Shown one piece after another: positions 17,032 through 23,517 of a stretch of 41,128 bases of DNA; position 1 is the first letter of the stretch; each line of letters starts with the position of its first letter. Origin of the DNA: Ruminococcus sp. (GTDB taxonomy: Bacteria > Bacillota > Clostridia > Oscillospirales > Acutalibacteraceae); NCBI GenBank assembly GCA_017456845.1, contig JAFTIP010000009.1, forward strand, positions 1-41,128. The letters run 5' to 3'. A program made the translations under genes and the position numbers. The notes under the pieces are model-generated. The model worked only from the letters and a program-made list of their open reading frames with translations. It did no database searches and was not told the DNA's origin.

Positions 17032-17598
17032 TTAATAGTTATAACCTAACTCAAAAGCCTTTTTGTTAAGCTCCACAAATTTAGGAGCAACTGTGGTTTC
17101 GATAGCCTCAATCCACTTGTCGTAGGAAATATCGAAGTACTTTGCAAGTCTGCCCATAAGCACGATGTTAACCGCCTTTGAGGAGCCTGCCTCAGTAGCT
17201 AAAGAGAGAGCATCCAAAGCATCTACCTTAACCTTCTCGCTTAACTCATCAAGGATATTTTCGGGATATTCGGCAGCACCTGTAATAACAGGCATAGGGT
17301 CAATTTGCTGAGTATTTGTGATAATTACGCCGTCTTTCTTGAGGTACTCTACCCAACGGGCTGCTTCAAGCTTTTCAAAAGATACGATGCAATCCGCACC
17401 GCCTTTATCAATTACGGGAGAGTAAACTTTCTCGCCGCATCTTACATATGTAACAACACTACCGCCACGCTGGCTCATTCCGTGAACTTCGCTAACCTTA
17501 ACGTCCAAACCTTCGTTCATAAGAAGCTTGCCTAAAAGCTTACTTGCCAGAAGTGAACCCTGACCGCCAACGCCTACAATCATAATACTTTTATTCAT
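17032..17598 (-). CDS. iorB: Indolepyruvate ferredoxin oxidoreductase, beta subunit
   Basis: A subunit of 188 residues. ATG 17598 (MNKSIMIVGVGGQGSLLASKLLG) is preferred because GAGGTG lies about 7 bases upstream; the in-frame GTG at 17613 directly follows the iorA stop. It is the gamma-type domain of the 2-oxoacid:ferredoxin oxidoreductases, with the glycine-rich GVGGQG loop and the EVHGMSQRGGSVVTYVR motif. With IorA it oxidatively decarboxylates aryl-pyruvates to aryl-acetyl-CoA and reduces ferredoxin. The gap to iorA is 11 bases. Confidence 0.92.
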   Translation of the reverse strand: MNKSIMIVGVGGQGSLLASKLLGKLLMNEGLDVKVSEVHGMSQRGGSVVTYVRCGEKVYSPVIDKGGADCIVSFEKLEAARWVEYLKKDGVIITNTQQIDPMPVITGAAEYPENILDELSEKVKVDALDALSLATEAGSSKAVNIVLMGRLAKYFDISYDKWIEAIETTVAPKFVELNKKAFELGYNY

Positions 17599-17609
17599 TA
17601 CAGCACACC

Positions 17610-19337
17610 TCACTCACAAATTGCATCAAATTTACAAAGCTGCTCGCAAACACCGCAACCAACGCAAAGAGTTTTGTCAATCTCTGCCTTGCCGCCGTGC
17701 ATACTGATAGCAGGGCAACCAAGCTTCATACACATTTTGCAGGATTTGCACTTGTCTCTGTCAACTTTAACAGGAGGATTGAGCTTAACGCTCTTGAGAA
17801 GAACGCAGGGTCTGCGTGAAATAATAACTGAAGGCTCGTCTACGGCTAATTCTTCCTTAACAGCCTCTTCGCACTCTTTAAGGTTATAGGGGTCAACAAC
17901 TCTTACTCTGTTGATGCCTACTGCCTTACATAAGGTTTCAAGGTCAATTTTTGCAGCAGGGTCGCCCTTAATATTGTAGCCCGTTGTGGGGTTCTGCTGA
18001 TGGCCTGTCATACCTGTAATGGAGTTATCAAGAATAATAACTGTGGAATTTGAACCGTTATAAGCAATATTAATAAGGCCTGTAACGCCTGAGTGCATAA
18101 ATGTGGAGTCACCGATTACGCAAACGCTCTTGCCCTCGGTTTCTTTACCGCCTGCTTTGTTGAAGCCGTGAAGGCCTGAAACAGAAGCACCCATACAAAG
18201 GGTGGAGTCAAGAGCACTTAAGGGAGCCTGAGCACCAAGTGTGTAACAACCGATATCGCCTAAAACTGTAATCTTATTCTTGGAAAGCACATAGTACATT
18301 CCTCTGTGGGGACATCCTGCACACATAACGGGAGGACGCATGGGAACAGCGGTTTCGATAGAATCAAATGGAGCAACTTCCTTGCCGAAAGCCTCTGCCA
18401 CAATGCTCTGAGAAAACTCGCCGATATTAGAGAACATCTCTTTACCCTCAACCTCTAAGCCAAGGTTCTTAACGTGGGTCTCAATTACACCGTCAAGCTC
18501 TTCTACAATATAAAGCTTCTTAACCTTTGAAGCAAAGTTTTTGATTCTCTCTACAGGAAGAGGATTAATCATACCGATTTTAAGAACGCTTGCCTCATCG
18601 CCAAAAACTTCCTTAACATACTGATATGATGTAGAGCTTGTAATAATACCGATTTCGCCTGTTCCCCACTCCTCACGATTAAGGTCAGAAGTTTCTGCTA
18701 ATTCTGTAAGCTTCTTGGTTCTTTCCTCAACAAAAGGATGACGCTTCTTAGCCATTGCAGGCATCATAATATACTTCTGCATATTCTTTTCGTAGGGCTT
18801 AAGCTCAGGCACTACACGCTCTGAAAGCTCTACAACGCTCTGGGAATGAGCAACTCTTGTGCACATTTTAATAAGAACAGGAGTGTCAAACTCCTCAGAA
18901 AGCTCAAAGGCTTTTTTGGTAAACTCAAGTGCTTCCTTTGAGTCTGCAGGCTCAAGCATAGGAACCTTTGCAGCAATTGCATAGTGGCGGGAGTCCTGCT
19001 CGTTCTGAGAGGAGTGCATACCGGGGTCGTCTGCAACGCAGATAACAAGACCGCCTGTTACACCTGTGTAAGAAAGTGTAAATAAGGGGTCAGCGGCAAC
19101 GTTTAAGCCAACATGCTTCATAGCACAGCAAGCTCTTTTGCCTCTTAAGGATGCACCGAAGGCAACCTCCATGGCTACCTTTTCATTAGGTGCCCACTCG
19201 CAGTAGATGTCGTCAAATTTTGCGGCAAGCTCAGTTATCTCTGTACTGGGTGTGCCGGGGTAAGAGGATACGATTTCGCATCCTGCCTCGTAAAGACCAC
19301 GGGCAATAGCACCGTTGCCGATAAGTAATTCTTTCAT
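17610..19337 (-). CDS. iorA: Indolepyruvate ferredoxin oxidoreductase, alpha subunit
   Basis: A subunit of 575 residues. The N-terminal pyrimidine-binding domain (EIVSSYPGTPSTEITELA, CEWAPNEKVAMEVAFGASLRG) is followed by a middle domain and a TPP-binding domain (APLSALDSTLCMGASVSGLHG, VIGDSTFMHSGVTGLINIAYN). The C-terminus carries a ferredoxin domain with two cysteine sets, CKSCKMCMKLGCP and CVGCGVCEQLCK, for iron-sulfur clusters. The enzyme converts aryl-pyruvates from Trp, Phe or Tyr transamination to aryl-acetyl-CoA. The start ATG 19337 follows a GGAG site. It is the second gene of the operon headed by the symporter. Confidence 0.94.
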   Translation of the reverse strand: MKELLIGNGAIARGLYEAGCEIVSSYPGTPSTEITELAAKFDDIYCEWAPNEKVAMEVAFGASLRGKRACCAMKHVGLNVAADPLFTLSYTGVTGGLVICVADDPGMHSSQNEQDSRHYAIAAKVPMLEPADSKEALEFTKKAFELSEEFDTPVLIKMCTRVAHSQSVVELSERVVPELKPYEKNMQKYIMMPAMAKKRHPFVEERTKKLTELAETSDLNREEWGTGEIGIITSSTSYQYVKEVFGDEASVLKIGMINPLPVERIKNFASKVKKLYIVEELDGVIETHVKNLGLEVEGKEMFSNIGEFSQSIVAEAFGKEVAPFDSIETAVPMRPPVMCAGCPHRGMYYVLSKNKITVLGDIGCYTLGAQAPLSALDSTLCMGASVSGLHGFNKAGGKETEGKSVCVIGDSTFMHSGVTGLINIAYNGSNSTVIILDNSITGMTGHQQNPTTGYNIKGDPAAKIDLETLCKAVGINRVRVVDPYNLKECEEAVKEELAVDEPSVIISRRPCVLLKSVKLNPPVKVDRDKCKSCKMCMKLGCPAISMHGGKAEIDKTLCVGCGVCEQLCKFDAICE

Positions 19338-21080: not shown

Positions 21081-21109
21081 TTGACATAGTATGCAAGTTG
21101 GTTTATAAT
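21081..21109 (+). promoter_or_regulatory. Consensus sigma-A promoter of the met leader
   Basis: TTGACA (21081-21086) and TATAAT (21104-21109) with a spacer of exactly 17 bases: both hexamers match the consensus perfectly. Transcription should start near 21116, 23 bases before the leader ATG. Such a strong unregulated promoter suggests that control is exerted downstream. Confidence 0.9.
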
Positions 21110-21138
21110 GAATTTAAGTTTTACAGGAGGACACCAAA

Positions 21139-21198
21139 ATGAAAAGTTTATATGTAAACTACAATATGATGATGTGCACCTGTGCCTTCAAAAACTGA
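21139..21198 (+). CDS. Met/Cys-rich leader peptide upstream of metY
   Basis: A 19-residue open frame, MKSLYVNYNMMMCTCAFKN, with an excellent ribosome site (AGGAGGA, 21125-21131) 7 bases before its ATG. Codons 10-12 are consecutive Met (21166-21174), followed by Cys-Thr-Cys (21175-21183). Three adjacent Met codons are very unlikely by chance in so short a peptide placed before methionine genes. The last codons (GCC TTC AAA AAC TGA) form one arm of the proposed antiterminator. I infer a regulatory peptide whose translation speed reports charged Met-tRNA (and perhaps Cys-tRNA); the peptide itself probably has no other role. It is too short for normal gene finders. Confidence 0.82.
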   Translation: MKSLYVNYNMMMCTCAFKN

Positions 21199-21232
21199 TT
21201 GAGTCTTTATGATTTATCTGATTTTTGAGGGC
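21184..21232 (+). promoter_or_regulatory. Proposed antiterminator hairpin of the met attenuator
   Basis: GCCTTCAAAAA at the end of the leader frame (21184-21194) can pair over 11 consecutive positions (one G-U) with TTTTTGAGGGC (21222-21232). After bulging A21221 the helix continues with four more pairs and one mismatch (21195-21199 with 21216-21220). The downstream arm includes GGC 21230-21232, the base of the terminator stem, so the two hairpins exclude each other. A ribosome at the leader stop codon would cover the upstream arm and favour termination; one stalled at the Met codons would leave it free. Confidence 0.68.
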
Positions 21233-21262
21233 AGATACCCATTTGGGTTTCTGCCTTTTCTT
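21230..21262 (+). terminator. Intrinsic terminator (attenuator) before metY
   Basis: GGCAGATACCC (21230-21240) pairs with GGGTTTCTGCC (21245-21255), 10 of 11 positions, loop ATTT, followed by TTTTCTTATTT. It lies between the leader peptide and metY, 35 bases before the metY start, where a simple operon would have no terminator. Confidence 0.88.
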
Positions 21263-21289
21263 ATTTAAACTTCAAGGAGGAAGATACCT

Positions 21290-22573
21290 ATGAGTAACTT
21301 CAGTATCGACACTAAATGCGTTCAGGGCGGCTATACCCCCGAAAGCGGCGAGCCCCGTCAGATTCCCATTGTGCAGAGCACTACTTTTAAATATGCAACT
21401 TCAGAGGCAATGGGCAAGCTTTTCGACTTAGAGGCTGAGGGCTATTTTTACACAAGACTTCAGAATCCCACCAACGACACCGTTGCAAAGAAGATTTGCG
21501 AGCTTGAGGGCGGTACTGCCGCAATGCTTACATCCTCAGGTCAGGCAGCAAGCTTTTTCAGCATCTTTAACATTGCAGGCGTAGGCGACCACGTGGTTGC
21601 ATCCTCTGCAATTTACGGCGGCACCTACAATCTTTTTGCAGTTACAATGAAGCGTATGGGCATCGACTTTACCTTTGTTGCTCCCGATTGCTCTGAAGAA
21701 GAGCTCAATGCCGCTTTCAAACCCAATACCAAGGCACTTTTCGGCGAAACTATCGCAAACCCTGCATTAGTTGTGCTTGATATCGAAAAGTTTGCAAATG
21801 CCGCACACAGCCACGGTGTTCCCCTTATTATTGACAACACCTTTGCTACTCCCGTTAACTGCCGTCCTATTGAATGGGGTGCAGATATCGTTATTCACTC
21901 AACAACAAAGTACATCGACGGTCACGGCGTTTCTGTTGGCGGTTGCATTGTTGATTCCGGTAAGTTCGACTGGACAAAATACCCCGACAAATTCCCCGGT
22001 CTCTGTACTCCTGACGAAAGCTACCACGGCGTAACCTATACCGAGCGTTTCGGCCTTGCAGGTGCATACATTACTAAGGCAACTGCTCAGTTAATGCGTG
22101 ATTTCGGCTGTATCCAGTCCCCTCAGCACGCTTTCTACATAAACCTCGGTTTAGAGAGCCTTCACGTAAGAATGCGTCAGCACTGTGCAAACGGCCTTGC
22201 TGTTGCAACATATCTTAAAAATCATCCCAAGGTTGCTTGGGTACGTTTTCCCCATTTAGAAGGCGATGCTTCTTATGAGCTTGCAAAGAAGTATATGCCC
22301 AACGGCGGTTGCGGCGTTGTATCATTTGGCGTTAAGGGCGGAAGACAGGCTGCTGAGACCTTTATGAAAAACCTTAAGATTGCCGCTATCGAAACCCACG
22401 TTGCCGACGCACGCACCTGCTGCCTGCATCCTGCAAGTGCTACACACAGACAGATGAACGACGATGAACTTACCGCTGCCGGTATTTCTCCCGACCTCGT
22501 TCGTTTCTCCTGCGGTATTGAAGGTGCCGAAGACCTTATTGCAGACATCGAAAATGCATTAGCTCAGGTTTAA
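21290..22573 (+). CDS. metY: O-acetylhomoserine sulfhydrylase (homocysteine synthase)
   Basis: A cytoplasmic PLP enzyme of 427 residues, the usual size for this family. It makes homocysteine from O-acetyl-L-homoserine and sulfide. Motifs: the N-terminal [29 protein letters not shown], the phosphate-binding region ALEGG-like [16 protein letters not shown], the cofactor Asp in [10 protein letters not shown] (about 180-189) and the Schiff-base Lys in [13 protein letters not shown] (K207). AAGGAGG (21274-21280) gives a strong ribosome site. It is the first structural gene after the attenuator, and metAA follows 17 bases later and supplies its substrate. Confidence 0.95.
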
Positions 22574-22590: not shown

Positions 22591-23517
22591 ATGCCAATTA
22601 AAATTCCCAACGAGCTTCCTGCTACTAAAACTTTATATGAGGAAAACATCTTTGCCATTACCGAAACAAGGGCCTTAACTCAGGACATCCGCCCTTTGCA
22701 GATTGTTATTCTTAACCTTATGCCCACAAAGATTGAAACCGAAACCCAGCTTGCCAGACTTTTGGGCAACACTCCGTTGCAGGTAGATGTGGAGCTTATC
22801 CACACCGCCACCCACAAGTCAAAAAACGTTGACTCTGACCACCTTTTAAGCTTTTATAAAACCTTTGACGAGATAAAACACCGTAAGTTTGACGGTATGA
22901 TTATAACAGGTGCGCCTGTGGAGCATCTTGAGTTTGAAGAGGTAGAATACTGGGATGAGCTTTGTGAGATTATGGAATGGACCAAAACCAACGTAACCTC
23001 AACCTTTCATATTTGCTGGGGTGCACAGGCAGGTCTTTACTACCACTACGGCATAAAAAAGTATCCTCTTCCTAAAAAGCTTTTCGGAATTTTCAAACAC
23101 ACCTTAGACTACAAGCGTTCTATGCTTTTCAGAGGCTCTGACGACGAATTCTGGGTACCTCAATCCCGTCACACTACAGTAAGGCGAGAAGACATTGAGG
23201 CTGTAGAGGGGCTTAAAATACTTTCTTCATCAGAAGAAACGGGAGTTTACGCCATTTCCACTAACAAAGGCAGACAGATTTTTATTACAGGCCACTCAGA
23301 GTATGACCGCGACACCCTTAAAAAGGAATATTTAAGGGACAAAAACTTAGGCAAGCCCATAGACCTGCCTAAAAACTACTTCCCTGATGATGACGACACA
23401 AAAGACCCCGTTATCAAGTGGCGAAGCCACTCAAGCCTGCTTTACTCCAACTGGCTCAACTACTTTGTGTATCAGACAACTCCCTACAACATCAACGAAA
23501 TTGACTCTATAAAATAA
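22591..23517 (+). CDS. metAA: Homoserine O-acetyltransferase, MetA family
   Basis: A protein of 308 residues of the MetA (HTS) family. The catalytic Cys is C142 in [12 protein letters not shown] and the His/Glu pair is H235 and E237 in ITGHSEYD, the same numbering as in E. coli MetA. At residue 111 this protein has Glu (GAPVEHLEF), where E. coli has Gly (GAPLGLVEF). Glu111 is the established marker of acetyl-CoA rather than succinyl-CoA use in this family. That fits the neighbour metY, which needs O-acetylhomoserine. Automatic annotation often calls such proteins succinyltransferases. AGGAGGTG precedes the ATG. Confidence 0.95.

Follow-up and report, generated by a model that had tools for sequence, protein, structure and literature searches.

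A leader with tandem methionine codons before metY-metA in gut Clostridia: a candidate transcription attenuator

The metY-metA locus and its leader

The stretch of Ruminococcus DNA considered here (41,128 nucleotides, "the window" below) carries metY and metA behind a short leader, whose features are collected in Table 1. The initial annotation had placed such a leader directly before these two genes, and their identities are backed by NCBIfam matches above cut-off. On the opposite strand of the window, at 17032-19337, lie the genes for the alpha and beta subunits of indolepyruvate ferredoxin oxidoreductase (TIGR03336 and NF005325, above cut-off).

Table 1. Leader features and downstream genes, in window positions
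Feature	Position	Strand	Basis
Sigma-70-type promoter, TTGACA-17-TATAAT	21081..21109	+	12/12 consensus matches
Promoter boxes	TTGACA 21081-21086, 17-nt spacer, TATAAT 21104-21109	+	sequence
Leader ribosome-binding site, AGGAGG	21125..21130	+	sequence
Leader peptide ORF, MKSLYVNYNMMMCTCAFKN and stop, 19 codons	21139..21198	+	open frame, SD-led
Three tandem Met (ATG) codons, proposed sensor	21166..21174	+	sequence, conservation
Antiterminator 5' arm, GCCTTCAAAA, within leader ORF, 9 nt past Met run	21184..21193	+	pairs with 21223-21232
Antiterminator 3' arm, TTTTGAGGGC, overlaps terminator base	21223..21232	+	pairing
Intrinsic terminator hairpin, GGCAGATACCC-ATTT-GGGTTTCTGCC	21230..21255	+	folding, covariation
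U-rich terminator tract, TTTTCTTATTT	21256..21266	+	sequence
metY, O-acetylhomoserine sulfhydrylase, proposed regulated gene	21290..22573	+	TIGR01326 558.6 bits, cut-off 495.1
metA, homoserine O-acetyltransferase, next gene	22591..23517	+	NF047918 500.3 bits, cut-off 460.5

The individual parts named in the initial annotation were recovered. Its perfect promoter agrees with the consensus at every position, and the leader peptide with its ribosome site is present in the window as AGGAGG and a 19-codon frame. The antiterminator helix, which had been drawn between 21184-21199 and 21216-21232, has a conserved core at 21184-21193 and 21223-21232, and the intrinsic terminator that had been put at 21230-21255 folds strongly compared with shuffled sequences, has conserved pairing and is followed by a U-rich tract. 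The bases common to both helices are GGC at 21230-21232, as had been noted; the overlap comes to only 3-4 bases. Folding of the RNA from 21180 to 21270 gives z = -5.04, and from 21110 to 21270 z = -4.01; in either case 0 of 200 shuffles folded as well. A simple terminator scan missed the hairpin in the window (0 found). As a control for chance, 2,800 dinucleotide-shuffled upstream regions were searched for an SD-led ORF of 10-40 codons containing MMM, and none was found. The element before metY is beyond chance, and the anatomy of the locus and its conservation are firmly established.

Distribution of the element

A total of 20 elements was found, each before metY: 12 in the 161 genomes of the genus and eight in the 296 relatives of a second genome. 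The Met codons and both helices are conserved among them, with compensating changes, a point on which the initial annotation had let its proposal depend. Model R1 was built from the 12 genus leaders themselves, which had originally been found by scanning metY upstream regions, and in the genus it gives scores above 100 bits in 12 of 161 genomes, in each case before metY. The strongest genus match below these has 34.8 bits (G088, locus L166, model positions 63-136) and is without a Met leader. The distribution is patchy (12/161 genus genomes). Among the matches listed, 12 of the 14 genus genomes with a metY at least 83% identical carry the element (one split over two contigs). The remaining two close relatives, G078 and G069 (loci L055 and L056), are without the leader; in the last 120 nt before their metY, the promoter runs directly into a remnant hairpin and then into metY. 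The other genus upstream regions examined, which adjoin metY genes at most 73% identical, contain no Met leader.

The metY upstream scan also gave a second group, consisting of L134 (MNMIHRAVMMMCDTACVNAL; public contig SVKO01000004.1) and L202 (MKTVYTHTTMMMRSTACV). R1, trained without L134, gives this locus 34.8 bits (E 9e-7 in 77 kb). Because the best non-leader match and the true L134 have the same score, R1 alone fails to separate distant members. Model R2, whose training included L134 and L202, was run over the 296 relatives of the L134 genome and yielded five new matches of 35.6-58.5 bits, all before metY (MNALSMRAVMMMPNTVFGRFQNR, MLKRTYNGFYMMMPITVFSRF, MKMNMVSSMMMPCAVFGCF, MKQNMLSSMMMPSAAFAAS and MSLIHHRAVMMMRSAVFGRTSDKRS), and a sixth new element before metY at only 25.7 bits (MKNSVYMCMMMFRTALSLR). 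The matches directly below 35.6 bits, L286 (35.5) and L287 (33.3), are both without a Met leader. Among the matches whose locus was examined, R2 over 391 genomes of the class gave no further case, and model R3 over 394 genomes of the order recovered only the element of L285. The element counts are lower bounds, since R1 missed the genome of L285 (G364) in the order sample, where R3 found it.

The 20 elements have many properties in common. TTGACA lies upstream of every leader, with a best promoter match of 10-12 out of 12, and an SD-like motif precedes the leader in 20/20 by a loose pattern and in 19/20 when the pattern is stricter (the motif of L281 is weak). The leader ORF is open in frame in all 20 and encodes 18-25 residues. 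The Met run begins at codon 9-11 and reads MMM in 19 elements and MM in one, where it must be kept in mind that the models contain the ATG run and MMM is therefore partly selected among their matches. In 171 metY upstream regions with 40 SD-led short ORFs, a count that predates the last six elements, triple runs were of Met in 13 cases, Ile in 2, Pro in 2, Ser in 1 and Leu in 1. The spacing to the antiterminator arm is constant, with no gap between the Met run and the arm in 19/19 aligned elements. Codon-position bias in the leader is weak (232, 212 and 280 differences at positions 1, 2 and 3), so that no purifying selection on the peptide is claimed. The SD motif, the open frame and the Met run suggest that the leader is translated.

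In a tree of the metY proteins, the group of the window and L134/L202 are not sisters, and support for the deep nodes is weak. Such a tree would be compatible with repeated origin, with horizontal spread and with repeated loss alike.

Some further loci were set aside. On the minus strand of L296, from 1490, a candidate Met leader (MHPSIGNSMMMCNMRSKMRMCFAVPI) and a terminator precede another O-acetylhomoserine sulfhydrylase gene, 40% identical to the metY of the window. L112, from 3829, has a Met-rich leader (MMCHMWNMIMLVLAY) and a terminator before metY, with an R2 score of only 17 bits. Both loci are excluded from all counts and alignments. A scan of the 79 model-match loci L166-L200 and L261-L304 over their whole length turned up SD-led short ORFs whose MM falls at the model position, but without a met gene, at L186, L264 and L302/L293, the last being one place under two labels with an ORF that reads MMMCCC, and also at L271. 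On the minus strand of L186, from 1517, the short ORF reads MQAQMMAFMCWAYHFHLPI and, together with a terminator, precedes the gene of a nucleobase permease; the model probably matches here by chance. At L264, from 1517, there is a small hydrophobic SD-led ORF (MDNEYILSFMMILLLLVISIKK), and no ORF of at least 100 codons starts within 1.2 kb downstream on the same strand.

Covariation and competition of the two helices

The covariation analysis in relatives that had been called for gave compensating changes over 19 sequences, while covariation within the genus group of the window is slight. In the 12 genus sequences, 99.2% of the antiterminator cells are paired and one pair is doubly changed; the covariation score of the antiterminator is attained in 51 of 500 shuffles, that of the terminator in every one of the 500. 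With L134 and L202 added (14 sequences), the antiterminator is 95.2% paired with 3 doubly changed pairs and the terminator 97.4% paired with 6, and for either helix none of the shuffles attains the same share of paired cells or the same covariation score. The widest alignment, A8, has 19 sequences; L294, although counted among the 20, was left out of these pair counts since its 3' part is misaligned. A8 was aligned by sequence, without fitting to structure, and the structure was taken from a single member, L281; the start codons of L282-L284 are not aligned to the rest, but the helix columns are. In this alignment 91.4% of the antiterminator cells and 91.5% of the terminator cells are paired, and at most 56.7% and 60.3%, respectively, when the pairings are slid. 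Doubly changed cells number 24 in the antiterminator (8.6 in shuffles) and 38 in the terminator (11.9 in shuffles), bearing in mind that cells count sequences and not events, and that related sequences can exceed shuffles. For both helices, 0 of 500 shuffles match the doubly changed cells, the paired share or the score. Double changes are seen in 6 pairs of the terminator. By number of doubly changed pairs and of pair types, neither helix stands out from shuffles: 61 and 109 of 500 shuffles do as well for the antiterminator, 135 and 338 of 500 for the terminator. The segment between the antiterminator arms varies in length and sequence.

At equilibrium, folding of the window favours the terminator. 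In the window the shared antiterminator pairs form with a probability of 0.26-0.37, a value that does not exceed 0.52 in any of the other 13 sequences of the 14-member set. Imposing the shared GCC:GGC pairs on these 14 takes 0.53-3.39 kcal/mol relative to the full ensemble. In the 8 distant members, the antiterminator lies above one half in three (L282, L284 and L285), with 0.09 in L134 and 0.004 in L202; the result varies with the stretch folded, and another fold gives the antiterminator in L282-L285. The antiterminator would be expected to form first, as its helix is transcribed ahead of the 3' arm of the terminator.

The position of the ribosome was considered with an assumed footprint. A ribosome stalled at the first Met codon leaves the 5' arm fully free, and at the last Met codon partly covers it. 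The initial annotation had pointed out that the upstream arm is the end of the leader frame and would be hidden by a ribosome at the stop codon; with this footprint the arm, whose helix shares bases with the terminator, is within reach of such a ribosome and covered.

Known regulatory elements at the locus

SAM-I riboswitches are a usual control of met genes in Firmicutes. Both this riboswitch and a T-box had been reported absent from the locus, and both are rejected here as well, given that there is no RF00162 or RF00230 match upstream of metY. Nowhere in the window does an Rfam family attain its gathering score, and no Rfam element was found at any of the 20 leader loci, with SAM-I (RF00162), T-box (RF00230) and the His, Leu, Thr and Trp leaders included in the search. 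The genome of the window (G000) has one SAM-I match, before metK, a placement also seen in G551, and nine T-box matches, one of them before pheS. At L204:1224-1449 a T-box, whose specifier position reads AUG by eye, immediately precedes a metY that shares 83% identity with that of the window. The other leaderless relatives scanned have no Rfam element before metY (18/20 loci in one scan, 19/20 in another). Among related gut bacteria, metY appears to have switched sensors, between a leader peptide, a T-box (one relative) and no Rfam element. A Met T-box would likewise sense tRNA-Met charging before metY, but it binds the tRNA directly, without translation, and is absent from the 20 leader loci. 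The SAM-I riboswitch is found in the same genome, at metK, but senses SAM and is absent from the metY locus.

Mechanism and alternatives

We consider it very likely, from comparison of sequences, that the element before metY-metA is a transcription attenuator of the ribosome-mediated type, with charged elongator tRNA-Met as its signal. That comparison brings out the promoter, the short ORF, the Met run, both helices and the linkage to metY; translation, stalling, the methionine response and the read-through switch are what we infer from them. In the proposed mechanism, RNA polymerase would start at the promoter and a ribosome would translate the 19-codon leader. When methionine is plentiful, the ribosome would pass the three AUG codons, reach the stop codon and cover the arm at 21184-21193, so that the terminator would form and transcription would end near 21260. 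When methionyl-tRNA is scarce, the ribosome would stall on the AUG run and leave the arm, 9 nt downstream, free to pair with 21223-21232 once this is transcribed. The antiterminator would then take the GGC at the base of the terminator, and polymerase would continue into metY-metA. This reading is tempered by two results: doubly changed pairs are no more numerous than in shuffles, and of the 8 distant members only 3 have the antiterminator above one half.

Peptides such as TnaC and plant CGS1 stall their own ribosome in response to a small molecule. It is possible, if improbable, that the leader peptide here does the same, for instance with SAM or methionine, and so controls the terminator. 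The residues past the Met run look conserved in the group of the window (SAF[KR]; CAFK in the window), and the Met run could itself be an arrest motif. These residues overlap the antiterminator arm, however, and vary wherever the helix does (SAF, TAC, TVF, AVF), and the codons from the start to the Met run diverge freely, with 351 non-synonymous against 47 synonymous differences in clade-1 pairs. A stall on excess methionine or SAM would also be expected to free the antiterminator, which would be the wrong sign for feedback.

Another explanation is that the terminator and its flanking helix simply fix a basal level of expression, and that the small ORF, translated or not, has no regulatory role. 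This would fit with the minimum-energy folds, where the terminator is kept in 11 of 14 members even with a ribosome at the first Met, and ensemble probabilities agree for most of them. We judge it quite unlikely, because a Met run at codons 9-11 in 20/20 elements, the constant distance to the arm and a covarying helix with one arm inside the ORF would be difficult to account for if no ribosome were involved. An undescribed riboswitch, in which a structured RNA binds a protein or metabolite directly, would agree with the strong folding and the absence of an Rfam match, but the conserved parts are the Met run and two overlapping helices only, with a variable segment between the arms, and we give this very little credence. 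Sensing of cysteine or sulfur by a stall on Cys codons right behind the Met run, which the two Cys codons of the window leader (MMMCTC) might suggest, is most improbable and was rejected, as Cys past the Met run is missing in 7 of the 20 leaders.

Comparison with known attenuators

The attenuator reading has parallels. The classical attenuators (trp, his, leu, thr, phe and ilv; RF00513, RF00514, RF00512, RF00506) also have a promoter, an SD-led short ORF with codons for the product, an antiterminator 5' arm in or beside this ORF, a terminator with a U tract and a biosynthetic operon downstream. They differ in that here the codon is Met, the host is an uncultured gut clostridium, no Rfam leader matches, and the antiterminator of the window takes only the base of the terminator. 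In Firmicutes, leader-peptide attenuation of an amino-acid operon is described for ilv-leu of S. aureus in PMC5794164; that case has Leu and Ile codons and another operon, and is supported by mutants, whereas the metY leader is supported by comparison. According to PMC2965389, Firmicute His leaders before hisS* and hisZ were likewise predicted by comparison, with a leader peptide replacing a T-box, although with His codons and other genes.

As for specificity, the amino acids given for attenuators in PMC3766115 are His, Leu, Thr, Trp, Ile/Val and Phe. PMC1262725 proposes Cys leaders, and PMC8632094 one before cysS. PMC1262725 also finds no conserved RNA structure for the methionine operons of Actinobacteria, and in PMC2659441 (Shewanella) the word methionine is absent. 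The initial annotation held that a Met-codon attenuator in Clostridia is not known to have been described, and searches of open full-text PMC papers likewise showed no methionine attenuator. Measured against those papers, what is new is the amino-acid specificity, within a known kind of switch.

Implications for methionine control

Methionine is a special case, as starvation for it should also limit initiation: the initiator tRNA should be lowered too, and with it initiation at the leader. Taken together, and with distinctly more reserve than for the attenuator itself, we lean towards an undescribed class of Met attenuator that would be scattered over several lineages of gut Clostridia, in the place where the metY-metA of relatives has a T-box or lacks any recognised element. 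This class would work even though elongator and initiator tRNA-Met are charged by one synthetase, which means that the triple AUG would have to stall elongation at a degree of starvation that still permits initiation at the leader, and SAM would be sensed separately, by the riboswitch at metK in the same genomes. If this is true, a working Met attenuator would test the partition of elongator versus initiator tRNA-Met.
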